From assembly GCF_000943555.1 (NCBI RefSeq), contig NZ_JTDV01000008.1:124001-188000 (forward strand): a stretch of DNA of 64,000 bases, read 5' to 3'. Positions 9,519 through 25,842 of this stretch are shown piece after piece. The notes beneath the pieces were generated by a model. It saw only the letters and a list, made by a program, of their open reading frames with translations. It was not told where the DNA came from and did not search any database. How positions within the stretch are numbered: the first letter of the stretch is position 1; each line of letters starts with the position of its first letter. Both the position numbers and the translations under genes were made by a program. The DNA is from Neotamlana nanhaiensis (lineage in GTDB: Bacteria; Bacteroidota; Bacteroidia; Flavobacteriales; Flavobacteriaceae).

Positions 9519-9543
9519 CGCACTAGTTCATGAAAATTATAGT

Positions 9544-9726
9544 GTTATCAAGAAAGGTAGAGGGACTAGACCCAATGAAACCTTGGCAACCCTTGCCCTG
9601 AAGCATTTTGGGGTCTTACAATCTTAACATAGAAAGATTTAAAAGATTTTGAAACAAGTTCAAGGTAACGAAGGTGCTACATTCTACTGCGTTTTCCAGT
9701 TTTTTGGAAAGTATCAGACAGATAAC
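9544..9726 (+). ncRNA. SAM-I (S-box) riboswitch controlling the methionine synthase genes
   Basis: The conserved core is recognisable in order: P1 strand GTTATC (9544-9549), AAGAAAGG, AGAGGGACTAG-CCC, AATGAAACC, TTGGCAACC, then GAAGGTGCTAC, ATTCTACTG, a P4 hairpin TTTCC/GGAAA, and the closing P1 strand GATAAC (9721-9726). SAM-I riboswitches turn methionine genes off when SAM is abundant. The distance between the GGCAACC and AAGGTGC halves is about 80 bases, much longer than usual. It holds at least one further hairpin (AATCTT/AAGATT near 9620-9639), so P3 is strongly extended. The 3' flank has no terminator with a T-run. Confidence 0.92.
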
Positions 9727-9750
9727 GAAGAGTCTTCACTTACTTTTCTC

Positions 9751-9863: not shown

Positions 9864-10883
9864 ATGCAAGATATAAGAGAAGCTTTAAAAGAACGTATTT
9901 TGGTGTTAGATGGCGCTATGGGAACCATGCTTCAGCGTTATAAATTTACCGAAGAAGATTTTCGTGGCGAACGGTTTAAGGACTTTCCTATTCCGTTGCA
10001 AGGAAACAACGATTTGTTGTCTATTACCCAACCTAAAGCAATTAAAGAAGTTCATGCTAAATATTTTGAAGCAGGAGCCGATATTGTAGAAACCAATACC
10101 TTTTCGGGGACTACAATTGCTATGGCCGATTATCAAATGGAAGATTTGGTTTATGAGCTTAATTATGAGTCGGCTAAAATAGCCAAAGAGGTAGCTGATG
10201 AATTCACAAAAAAAGAGCCAAACAAACCGCGATTTGTGGCAGGATCTATCGGTCCAACAAACCGTACAGCAAGTATGTCGCCCGATGTAAACGATCCGGG
10301 TTACAGGGCTGTAACTTTCGATGAATTACGAATAGCTTACAAACAACAAGTTGAAGCTTTAATGGATGGTGGTGCCGATATTTTATTAGTTGAAACCGTT
10401 TTTGATACGCTTAATGCAAAAGCTGCATTGTTTGCTATTGAAGAAGTAAAAGACGAAAGAAATTTAGATATTCCAATCATGTTAAGCGGTACCATAACCG
10501 ATGCTTCAGGAAGAACTTTATCGGGGCAAACCGCCGAGGCATTTTTAATTTCGGTGTCGCATATTCCGTTATTATCTGTTGGATTTAATTGTGCTTTAGG
10601 AGCAAACTTATTGCAACCGCATTTAGAGGCTATTGCCAACAAAACCGATTTTGCAATTTCGGCACATCCAAATGCTGGTTTACCAAATGCTTTTGGCGAG
10701 TACGACGAAACACCGGAAGAAATGGGCGAACAAATTGAAGCCTATTTAAAAAAGAATTTAATAAATATTATAGGTGGTTGTTGTGGTACAACGCCAGAAC
10801 ATATTAAAGTAATCGCAGATATTGCGGCTAAATACCAACCACGAGAAGCTGTTACTCTTAACGTAGTCAAAGAGTCTCACTAA
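9864..10883 (+). CDS. metH: Methionine synthase, homocysteine-binding module (separate N-terminal subunit)
   Basis: This 339-residue protein corresponds to the first domain of cobalamin-dependent methionine synthase, the zinc-dependent homocysteine barrel. It begins with the DGAMGTMLQ motif, and the three zinc-ligand cysteines are visible: Cys243 in FNCALG and Cys306-Cys307 in GGCCGTT. In E. coli this domain is fused to the rest of MetH. Here the remaining domains are encoded 13 bases downstream, an arrangement common in Bacteroidetes. It lies under the SAM-I riboswitch. Confidence 0.94.
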
Positions 10884-10896
10884 AGCGAAAAGATAA

Positions 10897-13566
10897 ATGA
10901 AAGTGAAGCAATCAAAATACATGCGTTTGTCTGGTTTAGAGCCTTTGGTTTTAAACGAGAATAGCAATTTTATAAACGTAGGAGAACGTACAAATGTAGC
11001 AGGTTCTAGAAAGTTTTTACGATTAATTAAAGAAGAACAATTCGATGAAGCTTTAGATATTGCGCGTCATCAAGTAGATGGTGGCGCCCAAATAATCGAT
11101 ATTAATATGGACGACGGACTAATAGACGGCAAAGAGTCTATGGTACGTTTTCTAAACCTTATTGCTGCCGAACCAGATATTTGTCGTGTACCCATTATGA
11201 TTGATAGTTCCAAGTGGGACATTATCGAAGCAGGACTTCAAGTGGTGCAGGGTAAATGTGTGGTGAATTCTATTTCGTTAAAAGAAGGCGAAGAAAAATT
11301 CATTTGGGAAGCAAAGCAAATAAAACGTTATGGTGCTGCAGTAATTGTTATGGCTTTTGATGAAGTTGGGCAAGCCGATAATTACGAGCGCCGTATTGAA
11401 ATAGCCAAACGTTCGTACGATGTTTTGGTTAATAAAGTAGGATTTCCATCAGAAGATATCATTTTCGATTTAAATATTTTTCCCGTAGCAACCGGTATGG
11501 AAGAGCATCGCAAAAACGCTATCGATTTTATTGAAGCAACCCGTTGGGTACGCCAAAATCTTGAAAATGTAAGTGTAAGTGGCGGTGTGAGTAATGTGTC
11601 GTTTTCGTTTAGAGGAAATAATATTGTACGCGAAGCCATGCATTCGGTGTTTTTATATTATGCCATTCAAGCAGGTATGAACATGGGTATTGTAAACCCA
11701 ACCATGTTAGAGGTTTATGACGATATTCCAAAAGATTTATTAGAGCACGTTGAAGATGTTATTTTAGACAGAAGAGACGATGCAACCGAACGTTTACTAG
11801 AATTTGCCGAAACCGTAAAAGGCACAAAAGTTGAAAAAACAGCCGATTTATCTTGGCGCGAAAACCCGTTGCAAGACCGCATTACACATGCCCTCGTAAA
11901 AGGATTAGATACCTTTATAATTGAAGATGTTGAAGAAGCGCGACAATCGGTTGAGCGACCATTACACGTTATTGAAGGTCATTTAATGACCGGGATGAAT
12001 GTGGTTGGCGATTTGTTTGGCGAAGGTAAAATGTTCTTGCCGCAGGTGGTAAAATCGGCACGTGTAATGAAAAAAGCCGTGGCCTATTTAAATCCGTTTA
12101 TTGAAGCCGAAAAAGGTGAAGGACAAGAAGCGGTTGGAAAGATATTAATGGCCACCGTAAAAGGCGATGTGCACGATATTGGTAAAAATATTGTAAGTGT
12201 AGTATTGGCGTGTAACAACTACGAAATTGTAGATTTAGGTGTTATGGTACCGCCAGAAAAAATTATAGAAACCGCCATAAAAGAAAAGGTTGATGCTATC
12301 GGTCTTTCAGGTTTAATTACGCCGTCGTTGGACGAAATGGTGTATTTAGCTAAAGAAATGCAGCGCGAAAATTTTGAAATCCCGTTGTTAATAGGTGGCG
12401 CAACAACCTCGAAAGCGCATACAGCTGTAAAAATTGATACCGAATATAAAAATGCGGTTGTTCACGTTAACGATGCATCACGAGCGGTAACCGTTGTTGG
12501 TGATTTGCTTAACAAGAAAACATCAAACGAATATGTTTCTAAACTTAAGCAAGATTATGATGAGTTTAGAACCAAGTTTTTAAAGCGAGGAAAAGAAAAG
12601 TCGTATATCGATTTAGAAACAGCAAGAGCACGAAAATATACTATCGATTGGGAAACTTCTGAAATTGTAAAGCCTAAAGAAATGGGCGTGCAAATGCTTA
12701 AGCAATTAAGTTTAAAAGAATTATTACCGTATATCGATTGGAGTCCATTTTTTAGAAGTTGGGATTTACATGGTAAATTTCCAGATATTTTAACCGATGG
12801 GGTTGTTGGCGAACAAGCCACAGTGCTTTATAATGAAGCGCAAGAGATGATTGAAGAGGTTATAGCAAAACAATTACTAAAACCGCGAGCGGTATTTGGG
12901 TTGTTTGAAGCTAATAGCGTGAATGATGATGATATTTCGGTTAAGAAAAAAGGTGAAGAAATAGCGGTTTTTAGAACGCTGCGTCAGCAATTACAAAAGC
13001 GTGAAGGTATACCAAACCATGCCTTATCCGATTTTATTGCGCCAGAAAGCTCAGGTAAAACCGATTATATAGGCGCTTTTTGTGTTGCTATTTTTGGCGC
13101 TCAAGAATTAGCCGAAAGTTATAAAGCAAAAGATGATGATTACAGCGCTATTATGGCGCAAGCGATTGCCGATAGATTCGCTGAAGCTTTCGCCGAATAT
13201 TTACACAAGCAAGTGCGTACAAAGCATTGGGGTTATGCCGCGAATGAAGATTTAACCAATGATGAATTGATTAAAGAAAGTTACAAAGGTATTCGTCCGG
13301 CACCAGGTTATCCAGCGTGTCCAGATCATTTAGAAAAGGAAACCATTTGGGAACTGCTTGATGTTGAAAAAATAATAGGCGTAACGTTAACCGAAAGTCT
13401 AGCCATGTGGCCAGCTGCAGCCGTTTCGGGATATTATTTTGCAAACCCTGAAGCAAAGTATTTTGGGCTTGGTAAAATTACCGACGATCAAGTTCGGGAT
13501 TATGCAGAGCGAAAAGGTATTGCGCTTGATAAAGCAAGAAAGTGGTTGCACCCAAATATTGCTTAA
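10897..13566 (+). CDS. metH: Methionine synthase, methyltetrahydrofolate/cobalamin/activation modules
   Basis: The 889-residue protein carries the remaining domains of MetH in the usual order. A pterin-binding barrel opens with the [14 protein letters not shown] segment. A cap and cobalamin domain follows with [10 protein letters not shown], whose His426 is the lower cobalt ligand. A C-terminal SAM-binding reactivation domain (about 560-889) has the [12 protein letters not shown] segment. It transfers a methyl group from 5-methyl-tetrahydrofolate via B12 to homocysteine bound by the upstream subunit. No stop codon or frameshift is apparent, so the split is genuine. A small palindromic repeat follows 5 bases after the stop. 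Confidence 0.95.
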
Positions 13567-20641: not shown

Positions 20642-21535
20642 TTAAGCCGTTAAATCTCTAAATAAACTTTCTAAATTGGCATTTTTTTGATTTAACTGAA
20701 GAATTTTAAGCTGGTTGTCATGAGCAAAGTCAAACACATGCGAACGCATATCGTCGCTAGTTTTAAAAGTTATTTCGTAAACAAAGCCATGCGTGTTGGT
20801 TACCTTGGTTGCTTTAGGGAGTTGTTTTAAAAAGGCGTCTTCAACGCGGTAATCGAATTCTACTATTACGACTTGTTCTTTTTCGTCGCGTAACTCTTTA
20901 AGTTTTTTATCAGCAACAATTTCACCTTTATTTATAATAATAACACGTTCGCAAATGGCCTCAACCTCTTGCATTATATGAGTCGATAAAAAAACAGTTT
21001 TAGTTTGACCAATAGTTTTTATAAGTTGTCTAATATCTGCCAATTGGTTGGGATCTAAACCTGTTGTAGGTTCATCTAAAATTAAAACATCTGGATCGTG
21101 TAATAGCGCATTAGCTAACCCAACACGTTGGCGGTAACCTTTCGATAATTGTCCTATTTTTTTATGGGCTTCAGGTGTAAGTCCTGTAAGTTCAATAACG
21201 TCTTGTATACGTTGTTTATCAACTTTGTAAATATTGGCGTTAAATGCTAAATATTCTTTTACATACATATCTAAATACAACGGGTTGTGCTCAGGCAAAT
21301 AGCCTACACTTTGTTGTACCTGTTGCTTGTTTTGATTAACATCGTGATTATTAACTTTAGCGTTGCCAGTGTTTGCTGTTATGTAGGTGGTTAAAATCTT
21401 CATCATAGTAGATTTACCCGCACCGTTTGGTCCTAAAAAACCAACAATCTCTGGTTTGTTTACTTTAAATGATATATTGTTTAAGGCCTTTTGGCTTCCG
21501 TAAAGTTTAGTTATCCCGTTAACTTCAATAGACAT
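20642..21535 (-). CDS. gldA: Gliding motility ABC transporter ATP-binding subunit GldA
   Basis: The 297-residue ABC ATPase has a Walker A motif GPNGAGKST at residues 35-43, the signature LSKGYRQR and the Walker B LILDEPTTGLDP. The C-terminal tail of about 85 residues is the length and type found in GldA of gliding flavobacteria. GldA works with GldF and GldG, a membrane ABC complex needed for gliding in some species. Those partners are not adjacent here, so a related export ATPase is possible, but overall similarity favours GldA. Confidence 0.85.
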   Translation of the reverse strand: MSIEVNGITKLYGSQKALNNISFKVNKPEIVGFLGPNGAGKSTMMKILTTYITANTGNAKVNNHDVNQNKQQVQQSVGYLPEHNPLYLDMYVKEYLAFNANIYKVDKQRIQDVIELTGLTPEAHKKIGQLSKGYRQRVGLANALLHDPDVLILDEPTTGLDPNQLADIRQLIKTIGQTKTVFLSTHIMQEVEAICERVIIINKGEIVADKKLKELRDEKEQVVIVEFDYRVEDAFLKQLPKATKVTNTHGFVYEITFKTSDDMRSHVFDFAHDNQLKILQLNQKNANLESLFRDLTA

Positions 21536-21552
21536 ATTTAAAAATATTTATT

Positions 21553-21560
21553 CAAAAATA
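21553..21560 (-). promoter_or_regulatory. -7 promoter box for gldA
   Basis: Read on the minus strand this is TATTTTTG, matching TAnnTTTG, 17 bases before the gldA start. A -33 element was not found at the standard spacing. Confidence 0.45.
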
Positions 21561-21641
21561 AATTATTATACAACGTAATATAAGTTTTGCTGTAAAATCT
21601 TAAAAAATTTTAATAAAAGCATAAAAAATCGATGTAAGTGC

Positions 21642-21671
21642 TTTGAGTTTTTAAATAAATAATTACTTTAG
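21642..21671 (+). promoter_or_regulatory. Promoter of the aromatic amino acid operon (-33 TTTG, -7 TACTTTAG)
   Basis: TTTG at 21642-21645 and TACTTTAG at 21664-21671 (one base from TAnnTTTG) are separated by 18 bases, the spacing expected for the Bacteroidetes primary sigma factor. The predicted start near 21678 lies ten bases before the leader peptide ATG. Confidence 0.65.
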
Positions 21672-21687
21672 CACCACAATTAAAACG

Positions 21688-21765
21688 ATGACAATACATT
21701 ATACATATTTTATCAATTTCTTTTATTTCTTTTTTAGCGGAAGAAACGAGGCGTTGTATGTATAA
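21688..21765 (+). CDS. Phe/Tyr-rich leader peptide (attenuator)
   Basis: This 25-codon frame has about seven Phe and four Tyr codons, clustered as YTYFINFFYFFF at residues 5-16. It lies between the promoter and an intrinsic terminator upstream of pheA. Such a peptide is the hallmark of translation-coupled attenuation. Ribosome stalling at Phe/Tyr codons when charged tRNA is scarce would favour an alternative RNA fold and let transcription reach pheA, the aminotransferase and tyrA. It is too short for routine gene calling. The composition is seen directly; the mechanism is inferred by analogy with the pheA and trp leaders of enterobacteria. Confidence 0.8.
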   Translation: MTIHYTYFINFFYFFFSGRNEALYV

Positions 21766-21788
21766 TTTAAAAAATAAATTTAAATATG

Positions 21789-21817
21789 AGTCTCGATGAA
21801 AATCGGGACTTTTTTTT
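21789..21817 (+). terminator. Attenuator terminator before pheA
   Basis: AGTCTCGAT and ATCGGGACT form a 9-bp stem (one G-U) closed by a GAAA tetraloop and followed by a run of T. It lies 23 bases after the leader peptide stop. CGAGGC at 21747-21752, within the last leader codons, can pair with GTCTCG at 21790-21795. That pairing would break the terminator stem and gives a plausible antiterminator. Confidence 0.8.
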
Positions 21818-21858
21818 GTTCAAGAGTTACTTGAAAATTAAAAAACAACCTAATAAAA

Positions 21859-22686
21859 TTGATTAATACAGTAGCCATACAAGGTGTAAAAGGATCGTTT
21901 CATCATATTGTTTCAGAGCAATTTTTTGAAAATCCAGTGTCGCTTATCGAGTGTTTAACGTTCGATAGAGTGGTTGATGCTTTAATAACAAAAGAGTGCG
22001 ATGCGGCTATAATGGCTTTAGAGAACTCTATTGCGGGTTCTATAATACCAAATTATGCGTTAATCGATAATTATGGGTTGCATGTAGTAGGAGAGCATTA
22101 TTTAGATATTCAGCATAATTTAATGGCGTTAAAAGGGCAAAACATAGAGGATATTAAAGAGGTTTACTCTCACCCAATGGCCTTATTACAGTGTAAAGCG
22201 TTTTTTAGAAAACACCCACACATTAAATTGGTTGAAGATAAAGATACCGCCGAAGTTGCCCAACGTATTCACGAACAGCAATTAAAAGGTGTAGGTGCTA
22301 TTGCAAGTGTTTTGGCCGCCGATATTTTTGAACTCGATATTTTATCGCATAGCATCCAAACTATAAAAAATAACGAAACACGTTTTGCAATTGTAAAGCG
22401 AACTAATTCCGAAGTGCCACAAGAGGAAATAAATAAAGCATCATTAAAATTTACAGCAAACCACAAACGCGGTAGTTTAGCTACAATTTTAAATGTTATG
22501 AGCGATTGTAAATTAAATTTAACCAAAATACAATCGTTACCTATTGCCGAAACACCTTGGAAATATGCCTTTTTTGTTGATGTGACTTTTGAACAATATT
22601 CAGATTTCGATAAGGCAAAATCTATAATAAACATTATGGCCGAAGACTTTAAAGTTCTTGGTGAATATAAAAATGCAAAGCTATGA
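21859..22686 (+). CDS. pheA: Prephenate dehydratase
   Basis: This enzyme converts prephenate to phenylpyruvate in phenylalanine synthesis. It is a 275-residue monofunctional protein. It has an N-terminal dehydratase domain (AIQGVKGSFHH, ALENSIAGSI, and the ETRFAIV motif near residue 175 with the conserved Thr-Arg-Phe) and a C-terminal ACT domain from about 195 for feedback binding of phenylalanine. The only reasonable start is TTG, because the frame has no ATG between an in-frame stop at 21832 and MINTVAIQG. It follows the leader peptide and attenuator and overlaps the next gene by 4 bases. Confidence 0.94.
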   Translation: MINTVAIQGVKGSFHHIVSEQFFENPVSLIECLTFDRVVDALITKECDAAIMALENSIAGSIIPNYALIDNYGLHVVGEHYLDIQHNLMALKGQNIEDIKEVYSHPMALLQCKAFFRKHPHIKLVEDKDTAEVAQRIHEQQLKGVGAIASVLAADIFELDILSHSIQTIKNNETRFAIVKRTNSEVPQEEINKASLKFTANHKRGSLATILNVMSDCKLNLTKIQSLPIAETPWKYAFFVDVTFEQYSDFDKAKSIINIMAEDFKVLGEYKNAKL

Positions 22687-23828
22687 TAGAAGTAGCAAAT
22701 CGTTTACATACCGTTGAAGAATACTACTTCTCTAAAAAATTACGAGAAGTAAATTTAATGATTGCCAATGGTAAGCCAGTAATTAACTTAGGTATTGGTA
22801 GTCCAGATTTACAACCACCACAAAAGGTTGTTGATGCGATTATTGATAGTTTAAAAAGTCCGGTTGCCCATAAATACCAAAGTTATCAAGGGTTGCCAGA
22901 GCTAAGACAAGCTATGGCTAAGTTTTATAAAGCAAACTTTAAAGTAAGTCTTAGTGCGAATACCGAAATTTTACCGCTTATAGGTAGTAAAGAAGGTATT
23001 ATGCATATTTCTATGGCATTTTTAAATGAAGGTGACGAGGTGTTAATTCCTAATCCGGGGTATCCTACATACCAATCGGTTACAAAATTAGTAGGCGCCA
23101 AAGGTGTTTTATATAATTTAGATGCTGCCAATAATTGGATGCCAGATTTTAATGCCATAGAGCAACAAGATTTAAGTAAAGTAAAACTTATGTGGGTAAA
23201 TTATCCGCATATGCCAACAGGGGCAAAACCTTCAAAATACGTATTCGAAGAATTAGTGGCTTTTGGTAAAAAACACAATATTTTAATTGTAAATGATAAC
23301 CCGTATGCTTTCATTTTAAACCAAGAACCAACAAGTATTTTAAGTGTAGATGGCGCAAAAGAAGTTTGTTTAGAGTTAAATTCGCTCAGCAAAACGTTTA
23401 ATATGGCTGGTTGGCGTGTTGGCATGGTGGTTGGCGATGGCGAACTTATTAGTCATGTGTTAAAAGTAAAAAGTAACATGGATTCTGGTATGTTTTACGG
23501 TATTCAAAAAGGCGCAATCGAAGCATTAAACTGCTCAAGTATGTGGTTTGCTACGTTAAATAGTGTGTACCAAGAACGCCGCGAATTGGTTTGGCAATTA
23601 GCCGAAGCATTAAATTGTACCTTTAGTCGCGATGCTTCAGGAATGTTTGTTTGGGCGAAATTACCAGCATACATGAAATCGGAAGAATATATTGATATGA
23701 TTTTAAAAGAACATCATATTTTTATTACGCCAGGAACCATTTTTGGTAGCCAAGGCGAGGGATATATACGTTTTTCGCTTTGTGCAACTACCGAAGATTT
23801 ACATGAAGCCATAACACGAGTTTTATAA
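22683..23828 (+). CDS. Class I/II aminotransferase of the aromatic amino acid operon
   Basis: The 381-residue PLP enzyme has the class I fold motifs LGIGSPDLQPP near residue 36, NPGYPTY, VNYPHMPTGA, NDNPY and the PLP lysine in SLSKTFNMAGWRVG. Its place between pheA and tyrA, with ATGA overlap to pheA, indicates that it aminates phenylpyruvate and 4-hydroxyphenylpyruvate to Phe and Tyr. A wider aspartate or methionine aminotransferase activity is possible. The exact substrate range cannot be read from sequence. Confidence 0.88.
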   Translation: MIEVANRLHTVEEYYFSKKLREVNLMIANGKPVINLGIGSPDLQPPQKVVDAIIDSLKSPVAHKYQSYQGLPELRQAMAKFYKANFKVSLSANTEILPLIGSKEGIMHISMAFLNEGDEVLIPNPGYPTYQSVTKLVGAKGVLYNLDAANNWMPDFNAIEQQDLSKVKLMWVNYPHMPTGAKPSKYVFEELVAFGKKHNILIVNDNPYAFILNQEPTSILSVDGAKEVCLELNSLSKTFNMAGWRVGMVVGDGELISHVLKVKSNMDSGMFYGIQKGAIEALNCSSMWFATLNSVYQERRELVWQLAEALNCTFSRDASGMFVWAKLPAYMKSEEYIDMILKEHHIFITPGTIFGSQGEGYIRFSLCATTEDLHEAITRVL

Positions 23829-24680
23829 ATGAAAAATATTTACGTAATAGGCATAGGTTTAATTGGAGGAAGTCTTGTAAAAGATATTAAGCAACAAGAT
23901 CCGTCGGTTACAATTTATGGTATCGATAAAAAAGAAGCTGCACTCGATGAGGCTTTATCACTTAATTTAATTGATAAAAAAGCAGTTTTAGACGATTTAG
24001 AAAATGCCGATTTTGTAATTCTATCTATTCCTGTTGATGCTACTGAAAAACTGCTTCCTGTGGTTTTAAACAAAGTTAACGATAATGCTTTAGTTGTCGA
24101 TGTAGGATCAACTAAACTAGATATTTGTAAAGCGGTTGAAAACCACGAAAAGCGTCGTAATTACTTATCAATGCATCCTATTGCAGGTACCGAATTTTCA
24201 GGTCCAAGTGCAGCTATAAATGGTTTGTTTGTTGGTAAAACAAATATTATTTGCGAGGTAGAAAAAACAGCATTCAAATTACAAGAAAAGGCTTTGGAGT
24301 TGTTTAGAAATATAGGGATGCGTATGTGTTACATGAACCCAGAAGCACACGATAAGCATATTGCATATGTATCACATTTATCGCATATAAGTTCGTTTAT
24401 GTTGGGTAAAACAGTTATTGAAAAAGAAAAAAACGAACGCGATATTTTTGATATGGCGGGTAGTGGTTTTGCATCAACTGTACGTTTAGCAAAAAGTTCG
24501 CCTGCAATGTGGACACCTATTTTTAAACAAAATAAAGCCAACGTTATTGAAACATTAGAAGAATACATAGCCAACTTAACACAGTTTAAGGAACTTATGA
24601 AGCAAGACGATTTTGATGCTATTTTCAACGAAATGGAAAATACAAATTATATAAAAGAAATATTAAAAGGAATAAATTAA
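23829..24680 (+). CDS. tyrA: Prephenate dehydrogenase
   Basis: TyrA oxidatively decarboxylates prephenate to 4-hydroxyphenylpyruvate for tyrosine synthesis. The NAD-binding loop IGIGLIGGSLVKD is at residues 7-19. LSMHPIAGTEFSGP, HDKHIAYVSHLSH and FDMAGSGFASTVRLA are catalytic-domain signatures. The 283-residue length indicates a stand-alone enzyme without chorismate mutase, which is encoded in the next gene. Its ATG directly follows the aminotransferase stop. Confidence 0.94.
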   Translation: MKNIYVIGIGLIGGSLVKDIKQQDPSVTIYGIDKKEAALDEALSLNLIDKKAVLDDLENADFVILSIPVDATEKLLPVVLNKVNDNALVVDVGSTKLDICKAVENHEKRRNYLSMHPIAGTEFSGPSAAINGLFVGKTNIICEVEKTAFKLQEKALELFRNIGMRMCYMNPEAHDKHIAYVSHLSHISSFMLGKTVIEKEKNERDIFDMAGSGFASTVRLAKSSPAMWTPIFKQNKANVIETLEEYIANLTQFKELMKQDDFDAIFNEMENTNYIKEILKGIN

Positions 24681-24759: not shown

Positions 24760-25842
24760 ATGGAAAACACAAAAGAAATGAGAACATGGTTAGATGATTT
24801 AAAACTAGATCATCCGTTAGTAATTGCTGGACCTTGTAGTGCAGAAACCGAAGAGCAAGTATTAAAAATAGCTCACGAGCTAAAAGATACTGATGTTAGC
24901 TATTTTAGAGCCGGTATTTGGAAACCAAGAACACGTCCTGGAAACTTTGAAGGTGTTGGTGCTTTAGGTTTAAAATGGTTGCAAAAAGTAAAGGCAGAAA
25001 CTGGTATGAAAGTTTGTACCGAAGTTGCCAATGCAGCACACGTAAAATTAGCTTTAGAGCATGATATCGATTTACTTTGGATTGGGGCACGTTCTACCGT
25101 TTCGCCATTCATCATGCAAGAAATTGCAGATGCTTTAAATGGTACCGATAAGCCTGTGCTTATTAAAAACCCTGTAAACCCAGATTTATCGTTATGGTTA
25201 GGAGGTATTGAGCGTATTTACAAATCGGGAGTGAAAAATATTGGAGCGATTCACCGTGGATTTTCAACTTACCAAAAAACAAAATACCGTAACATTCCAG
25301 AATGGCAATTGGCAATCGAATTTCAAAATAAATTCCCAGATATTCCATTAATTAACGATCCGTCGCATATTACTGGTAAGCGCGATATGATTTTTGATGT
25401 ATCGCAAACGGCGTTAGATTTAAATTTTGATGGATTAATGATTGAAACACACTACGATCCAGACAATGCGTGGAGTGATGCGGCACAACAAGTAACGCCT
25501 TCAACATTGGTTCAAATTATGAAAGATTTAAAAATCCGTAAAGAAAGCGATGAAGAAGCAGAATACAATAATGCATTAAACAATTTAAGAACTCAAATTG
25601 ATGTTATCGATAACCAAATTATCGAGCAAATTGGTAAGCGTATGGCTGCTGCCGATGCTATTGGAGCCTTAAAAAAGAAGAAAAACGTAGCCGTATTACA
25701 ATCGAAACGTTGGAATGAAATTTTAGGTAAAATGGTTCTTGAAGGTGAGCAACATGGTTTAAGTGAAGAATTTATCTTAAAAATGTTTAAAGCGATTCAC
25801 CAAGAATCAATTAATCATCAAGAAAAGATAATTAACGGATAA
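24760..25842 (+). CDS. Bifunctional DAHP synthase / chorismate mutase
   Basis: The N-terminal 250 residues form a type I-beta 3-deoxy-7-phosphoheptulonate synthase: GPCSAETEEQV at 25-35, RAGIWKPRTRPG, IGARSTVSPF and NDPSHITG. Residues from about 268 to 360 are an AroQ-type chorismate mutase helix bundle (LRTQIDVIDNQII...). One protein therefore catalyses the entry step of the shikimate pathway and the branch step to prephenate. The mutase domain may also serve as a sensor for feedback inhibition, as known for similar fusions. It lies 79 bases after tyrA and ends at a strong terminator. Confidence 0.95.
   Translation: MENTKEMRTWLDDLKLDHPLVIAGPCSAETEEQVLKIAHELKDTDVSYFRAGIWKPRTRPGNFEGVGALGLKWLQKVKAETGMKVCTEVANAAHVKLALEHDIDLLWIGARSTVSPFIMQEIADALNGTDKPVLIKNPVNPDLSLWLGGIERIYKSGVKNIGAIHRGFSTYQKTKYRNIPEWQLAIEFQNKFPDIPLINDPSHITGKRDMIFDVSQTALDLNFDGLMIETHYDPDNAWSDAAQQVTPSTLVQIMKDLKIRKESDEEAEYNNALNNLRTQIDVIDNQIIEQIGKRMAAADAIGALKKKKNVAVLQSKRWNEILGKMVLEGEQHGLSEEFILKMFKAIHQESINHQEKIING

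Follow-up and report, generated by a model that had tools for sequence, protein, structure and literature searches.

Does the DNA upstream of pheA in Neotamlana nanhaiensis carry a leader-peptide attenuator, and if so, which amino acids does it sense? An earlier note, made from the letters alone, had read the locus as a Phe/Tyr attenuator, and this reading was followed up in the 64,000-nt stretch of DNA that contains it (the window) and in related genomes. The elements that the note had placed in order (promoter, ORF, terminator and 2:3 helix, ahead of the pheA operon) are all present, and the comparative evidence makes it very likely that ribosome-mediated transcription attenuation controls the pheA-aminotransferase-tyrA-DAHP synthase/chorismate mutase operon. 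The features of the locus, in window coordinates, are:

21642–21671, plus strand: putative promoter, with TTTG at 21642–21645 and the TAnnTTTG-like TACTTTAG at 21664–21671
21688–21765, plus strand: leader peptide ORF, from ATG at 21688 to TAA ending at 21765; peptide MTIHYTYFINFFYFFFSGRNEALYV
21698–21707, plus strand: segment 1, predicted to pair with 21757–21766 in the 1:2 protecting hairpin (MFE −14.7 kcal/mol)
21718–21735, plus strand: proposed aromatic control block F11-F12-Y13-F14-F15-F16, supported by the in-frame concentration of TTC, TAT and TGG in 126 leaders
21747–21759, plus strand: segment 2, antiterminator 5′ arm, with the core CGAGGC at 21747–21752 and an extension at 21754–21759
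21784–21797, plus strand: segment 3, antiterminator 3′ arm (21784–21795) and terminator 5′ arm (21788–21797)
21802–21817, plus strand: segment 4, terminator 3′ arm (21802–21811) and T-run (21810–21817)
21859–22686, plus strand: pheA, prephenate dehydratase, TTG start; PF00800 (PDT), E 4.2e-55
22683–23828, plus strand: class I/II aminotransferase; PF00155 (Aminotran_1_2)
23829–24680, plus strand: tyrA, prephenate dehydrogenase; PF02153 and PF20463 (PDH_N/PDH_C), NF006307 above cut-off
24760–25842, plus strand: DAHP synthase fused to a C-terminal chorismate mutase; PF00793 (DAHP_synth_1, type I) and PF01817 (CM_2)

The proposed 25-codon peptide with a dense Phe/Tyr block is indeed encoded here: 10 of its 25 residues are Phe or Tyr, and its stop codon begins at 21763. 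By the criteria of the family scan given below it is the sole aromatic-dense leader ORF on the plus strand of the 64-kb window, with three more on the minus strand. The upstream neighbour, an ABC transporter ATPase gene (20642–21535), is divergent from the leader and pheA, so the terminator at 21788–21817 does not close a preceding plus-strand gene, and we rejected a plain terminator of the upstream gene as an explanation. A further ORF of 26 codons (21786–21866, plus strand) starts just 5′ of the terminator stem and has a stop overlapping the pheA start; it is probably incidental, since by eye several relatives have ATA in place of its ATG. A second DNA match of window positions 21600–21658 in the same genome (L002) was set aside as an AT-rich stretch 3′ of a gene, which resembles an oxoacyl-ACP synthase by eye.

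The promoter with both elements suggested by the earlier note is present and of the Bacteroidetes type. TACTTTAG has five of the six fixed bases of TAnnTTTG, the promoter consensus quoted in PMC7366714, and the whole stretch hardly varies among the four genomes of the genus; a sigma-70-type scan of the region does not list it. Across the family, the exact box lies within 70 nt at 25 of 126 loci (6% of shuffles), and a box with at least five of six bases at 124 of 126 (63% of shuffles), which points to a box modestly above chance.

The gene assignments of the note (pheA, aminotransferase, tyrA and DAHP synthase-chorismate mutase) hold by Pfam, and among the NCBIfam matches listed tyrA alone passes a curated cut-off. 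The TTG start of pheA is found at the same place in all four genomes of the genus. The genes downstream of the leader thus make the amino acids proposed as sensed. In tblastn comparisons (1e-5), all three partner genes lie downstream of pheA on the same strand in 86 of 130 relatives, and the aminotransferase and tyrA were seen in 30 more (L003–L032, including the window's own locus), where the compared stretch ends soon after. The other pheA loci have the DAHP synthase without the other two (10), the aminotransferase and DAHP synthase (2), the aminotransferase alone (1, a short stretch) or none of them (1). PF00793 has three matches in the window's genome, the operon DAHP synthase and two others that NCBIfam names 3-deoxy-8-phosphooctulonate synthase, and PF01474 has no match in the 21 genomes searched, the window's included. 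The operon gene is therefore the only DAHP synthase found in this genome. The two 3-deoxy-8-phosphooctulonate synthase copies (L302 and L303) score equally and lie about 189 kb apart on one contig (C2).

Taken by itself the window gives weak statistics, with one terminator-like site in 21300–22200 against 0.5 expected, and the case was thus decided by conservation. Of 149 genomes in the family, taken to be Flavobacteriaceae from the best-matching named PheA relatives, 130 have a PheA match, and the upstream DNA of all 130 was compared. Conservation in relatives, whose absence would have spoken against the earlier reading, was found: automatic search followed by manual reading placed a leader upstream of pheA in 127 of the 130, of which 126 are complete, and in these leader, antiterminator and terminator recur with near-constant geometry. 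In the 300 nt before pheA (plus 20 nt), 124 of 130 genomes have an ATG ORF of 15–45 codons with at least six aromatics in ten, compared with 37 of 2600 mononucleotide-shuffled 300-nt upstreams; in downstream sequence, 28 such ORFs occur on the two strands of 990 kb. A chance meeting of a U-rich intergenic stretch with an unrelated terminator would suit the AT-rich region and a single terminator-like site near expectation, yet this excess over the shuffles and the divergent upstream gene leave it a negligible probability, and conservation already refutes it.

Within the genus (four genomes) there is almost no change in the promoter, the peptide, the two arms or the terminator. One of the three relatives has a peptide identical to that of the window, another differs in one residue, and the third encodes MTGYYTYFNFFYFFFSKRNEALYV (or a peptide two codons longer) with the block and the pairing segments kept. 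Two family loci (L042 and L077) have a more distant leader, several hundred bases separating attenuator and pheA; the extra stretch at L042 has repeated GC-rich hairpins by eye. Stems are imperfect at L087 and L109, L027 is cut by a contig end, and the 700, 373 and 700 nt examined upstream at L098, L113 and L122 showed no leader. In another collection, which overlaps the first, the leader is present at all 80 of the 80 best named loci, including Flavobacterium, Maribacter, Zobellia, Tenacibaculum and Capnocytophaga. Outside the family we sampled 40 upstreams, from 31 of the 33 same-class genomes with a match and from 9 hand-chosen, non-random rows of the phylum; six matching genomes of another family in the same order (f5) were left out. 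Of the 31 genomes belonging to other families of the class, 27 have the leader (in one of them it starts with GTG), as do 4 of the 9 upstreams taken elsewhere in the phylum. The triple of segments 2, 3 and 4 was recovered automatically in 21 of these 27 leaders and 2 of these 4.

All 126 complete leaders are short ORFs rich in codons for amino acids that the operon makes, with 6–12 Phe and Tyr per leader. Both Phe and Tyr are present in 126 of 126 peptides and Trp in 85. We counted codons from codon 2 to the block end in frame 0 and in frames 1 and 2. Three codons are sharply concentrated in frame 0: TTC (207/1891 against 2 and 5/1765), TAT (314/1891 against 16 and 7/1765) and TGG (86/1891 against 0 and 3/1765). 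TTT (445/1891 against 294 and 369/1765) and TAC (82/1891 against 10 and 75/1765) are poorly separated because the stretch is T-rich, and the frame argument is thus carried by TTC, TAT and TGG. As the ORFs had been picked for aromatic density, the count was repeated without the last three block codons, which are aromatic by definition, and gave TTC 92/1514 against 2 and 5/1389 and TAT 268/1514 against 16 and 7/1389. For TGG, the 125 of 126 leaders that qualify on Phe and Tyr alone gave, with the same omission, 84/1502 against 0 and 3/1378.

The earlier note had left open whether Phe or Tyr is sensed. In the aroF attenuator AroR of Corynebacterium glutamicum the availability of Phe matters and that of Tyr does not, according to the review PMC11802643, which means that the mere presence of Tyr codons is not proof that Tyr is sensed. 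By this precedent the same mechanism could sense Phe alone here, with Tyr and Trp codons as passengers. Phe is the commonest leader residue (23.3%, Tyr 15.6%), and the last five block positions of 125 leaders hold 437 Phe, 166 Tyr and 13 Trp of 625, the last three positions being aromatic by definition. We nevertheless consider sensing of Phe alone unlikely: TAT is as sharply in frame as TTC, at least two Tyr are found in 125 of 126 blocks, just as at least three Phe are, and tyrA belongs to the operon. The exception on both counts is L116, whose block end is mis-set and which was kept in all counts of 126. Given Phe and Tyr in every peptide, Trp in 85 and all three codons in frame, "Phe or Tyr?" may be the wrong question. 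The likeliest signal is that either Phe or Tyr runs short, and lineages whose leaders have a Trp codon may respond to Trp as a third input. Such a Trp input would vary between lineages, since the presence of Trp has changed at least 22 times on the PheA tree and the window's own leader has no Trp codon.

A bolder version, which we hold tentatively and find somewhat doubtful, is that one leader senses all three aromatics and sets entry to the whole aromatic pathway through the sole DAHP synthase found in the genome, with the trp branch under a second leader that responds to Trp only. Trp-rich leaders (at least two Trp) precede trpE at all 16 loci examined of 30, including that of the window's genome (MNNLLNNIWWWCLRN, L149; the others lie in L139–L154). 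Three tandem Trp are present in 14 of the 16, and a hairpin with a T-run follows the leader in 15 of the 16 by eye. ORFs with at least four His precede hisG at 6 of 10 loci, again including the window's genome (MTFIQFHHHFHICSQAK, L294), where no T-run was seen at the leader. With Trp leaders before trpE and His leaders before hisG, attenuation looks like a standing strategy in these bacteria. The window also contains a SAM riboswitch (RF00162, 56.2 bits, 9542–9728, plus strand) upstream of two ORFs, 9864–10883 and 10897–13566, which by eye resemble the two halves of methionine synthase.

An intrinsic terminator lies between the leader ORF and the first gene. As the note had described, it has a tetraloop and a T-run: a 10-bp stem (21788–21797 with 21802–21811), a GAAA loop and the T-run 21810–21817, with an MFE of −13.7 kcal/mol for 21779–21818. 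The competing 6-bp pairing of 21747–21752 with 21790–21795 is also real, with one G-U among its six pairs. In the MFE structure of 21746–21799, where segment 4 is absent, this core is extended by pairing of 21754–21759 with 21784–21789 and closed by a small AT-rich hairpin (−12.3 kcal/mol). Once segment 4 is included the terminator wins (−14.8 kcal/mol for the stretch). An antiterminator before segment 4 and a terminator after it match the need for a kinetic, cotranscriptional choice. The untranslated ORF is predicted to fold as the 1:2 hairpin, which would hold segment 2.

From this anatomy we infer the transcription start site, leader translation, ribosome stalling, termination and the response to starvation. 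RNA polymerase would start just upstream of 21688, and a ribosome would translate the leader. With ample charged tRNA-Phe and tRNA-Tyr the ribosome would reach the stop codon and cover the segment 2 core, segments 3 and 4 would form the terminator, and transcription would end before pheA. If the supply of an aromatic tRNA falls off, translation would halt in the block ending at codon 16, with the leading edge of the ribosome just short of segment 2. Segment 2 could then pair with segment 3 and block the terminator, and the four operon genes would be transcribed. If the leader is not translated, the 1:2 hairpin would hold segment 2 and the terminator would form.

The geometry of the 126 leaders is consistent with this course. 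With the block end taken as the last run of three aromatics, the distance from the first base of the final block codon to the start of segment 2 is 10–17 nt in 122 of 126 (median 14 nt), and it is kept where the stop codon moves. Segment 2 therefore starts close to the leading edge of a stalled ribosome. If the footprint is assumed to reach from 18 nt on the 5′ side to 13 nt on the 3′ side of the first stop-codon base, a ribosome at the stop overlaps segment 2 in 126 of 126. By computation, the antiterminator is thus exclusive with the terminator, and would be free when the ribosome stalls in the block and covered when it stands at the stop. Before segment 4 is made, the MFE structure contains at least four antiterminator pairs at 124 of 126 loci. 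In the MFE structure of the ORF, at least 3 nt of segment 2 are paired with upstream ORF sequence at 119 of 126, where a 1:2 hairpin is predicted to protect the terminator without translation.

Leaders were picked by aromatic density and stems by the T-run behind them, and for the antiterminator the best helix of each locus was taken; this last choice biases core pairing counts and swaps toward pairing. This circularity was answered by the reduced codon count, by swaps between core classes and by a scan of upstream windows. The segment 2 site outscores every tested upstream window of equal size in 120 of 126. The locus's own segment 2–3 duplex has a mean of −10.8 kcal/mol, compared with −7.0 for swaps between core classes and −5.2 for shuffled segment 2 with segment 3, and at 117 of 126 loci it exceeds the median swap in strength. 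The segment 3 cores of 124 loci fall into the classes GTCTCG (70), GTCCCG (25), GTCCTG (13) and nine others, and class changes are mostly matched by segments 2 and 4. At core positions 4 and 5 there is no mispairing with segment 2: read as segment 3:2, position 4 is T-A in 70, C-G in 51 and T-G in 3, and position 5 is C-G in 109, T-A in 11 and T-G in 4. Position 6 is unpaired in 22 of 124, position 1 in 7, and positions 2 and 3 in one each. Fewer than six contiguous antiterminator pairs are present in 7 of 126 leaders, with only three at L048.

In the alignment, terminator pairs are kept in 95.3% of cells over 126 rows, which were chosen to have a stem. In a free MAFFT alignment, which has register slips in segment 2, 78.0% of the antiterminator core cells are paired, more than in shuffles (mean 72.6, maximum 73.9) or slides (27–58). 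For the extension the value is 67.9% against a maximum shuffle of 67.8, with one slide at 60.5. The 6-bp pairing of the earlier note, the core, recurs across the family; the extension is seen in the window fold and lacks family-wide support. Tree-based compensatory change points in the right direction with few independent pairs: at position 4 four changes go the same way, none the opposite way and two make no difference (median p 0.125), and at position 5 the values are about 1.4, 0 and 1.6.

The same stem might instead act mainly on translation, with the 3:4 hairpin masking the pheA start rather than ending transcription. The stem ends at most 12 nt from the extrapolated pheA start at 42 of 126 loci (e.g., L008, L029 and L036), where it could hinder initiation; at the other 84 it ends further off, up to 517 nt away and 47 nt in the window, and a T-run follows the stem, as was required when stems were sought. 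We regard translational control as the main mode as very improbable. A ligand-binding riboswitch or T-box acting on the same terminator, which any terminator upstream of a biosynthetic gene would allow, appears less probable still. No Rfam family passes its threshold in the leader region, where the five sub-threshold matches are Phe_leader, Trp_leader, L10_leader and two sRNAs, and what is conserved is an ORF whose aromatic codons are specific to its frame. Arrest by the nascent peptide is judged less likely than attenuation as well, as clades differ in the peptide sequence that follows the block. Attenuation by a translating ribosome remains the preferred reading, and sequence and comparison provide its conserved ORF, codon identity, geometry, mutually exclusive helices and operon.

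The locus gives amino-acid control a concrete anatomy in a large group of bacteria for which the literature consulted documents little leader-peptide attenuation. The 126 complete variants are a natural set for comparing signal codons and RNA helices. If Phe, Tyr (and Trp) all act, the enzyme at the entry to aromatic synthesis would be under an attenuator with several inputs. The breadth of the leader also bears on transcription-translation coupling in Bacteroidota. Attenuators of this type require that a ribosome follow RNA polymerase closely. If these leaders work as proposed, their distribution across the class would imply tight coupling in bacteria that start translation without strong Shine-Dalgarno sites.

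Among known systems, the pheL-pheA leader of E. coli has the 1:2, 2:3 and 3:4 architecture and a leader peptide upstream of pheA, as here. The pheL peptide is Phe-rich and has no Tyr block, and E. coli belongs to another phylum. Against the corresponding Rfam family, RF01859 (Phe_leader), the leader region scores 22 bits (E 0.12), below the gathering threshold of 55. The AroR/aroF attenuator of C. glutamicum likewise places a leader peptide before a DAHP synthase operon under ribosome-mediated attenuation (PMC11802643; PMC4046766). It is described by one Phe-Tyr-Phe run and belongs to the Actinobacteria, whereas the pheA leaders carry the longer aromatic content given above, often with Trp, and have pheA and tyrA in the operon; the likeness drawn here is one of description. 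For phenylalanine and tyrosine operons of Actinobacteria, the available text of PMC1262725 reports no conserved regulatory RNA structures upstream. In Acholeplasma, uORFC-13-1 upstream of aroF combines a Phe-containing uORF (at least one Phe) with a terminator stem, as here, and is described as confined to Acholeplasma and environmental sequences (PMC8632094). Phe/Tyr uORFs at shikimate genes, given in the Fig. 6 legend of PMC6429828, share the Phe/Tyr content of the present leader.

Leader-peptide-like sORFs have been described in Bacteroides thetaiotaomicron (PMC7366714). A 2021 study of Flavobacterium psychrophilum found that pheA is preceded by a structured 5′ element, which also occurs in other Flavobacteriaceae genera and is reported there to have no Rfam hit; the study also gives clues for leader-peptide attenuation at amino-acid operons (PMC9723704). 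The structured element is very probably the same as the present leader; the main text, in its available part and supplements aside, gives no peptide, mechanism or signal for this gene. The earlier remark that attenuation is less documented in Bacteroidetes is thus fair, but with that element and those clues on record the present case is not fully new. In the open-access literature (preprints, supplements and subscription papers aside) we found no description of this leader's peptide or antiterminator in Bacteroidota. The kind of control is already known, and what the present locus adds to it is the anatomy, the breadth and the possible sensing of three aromatics.
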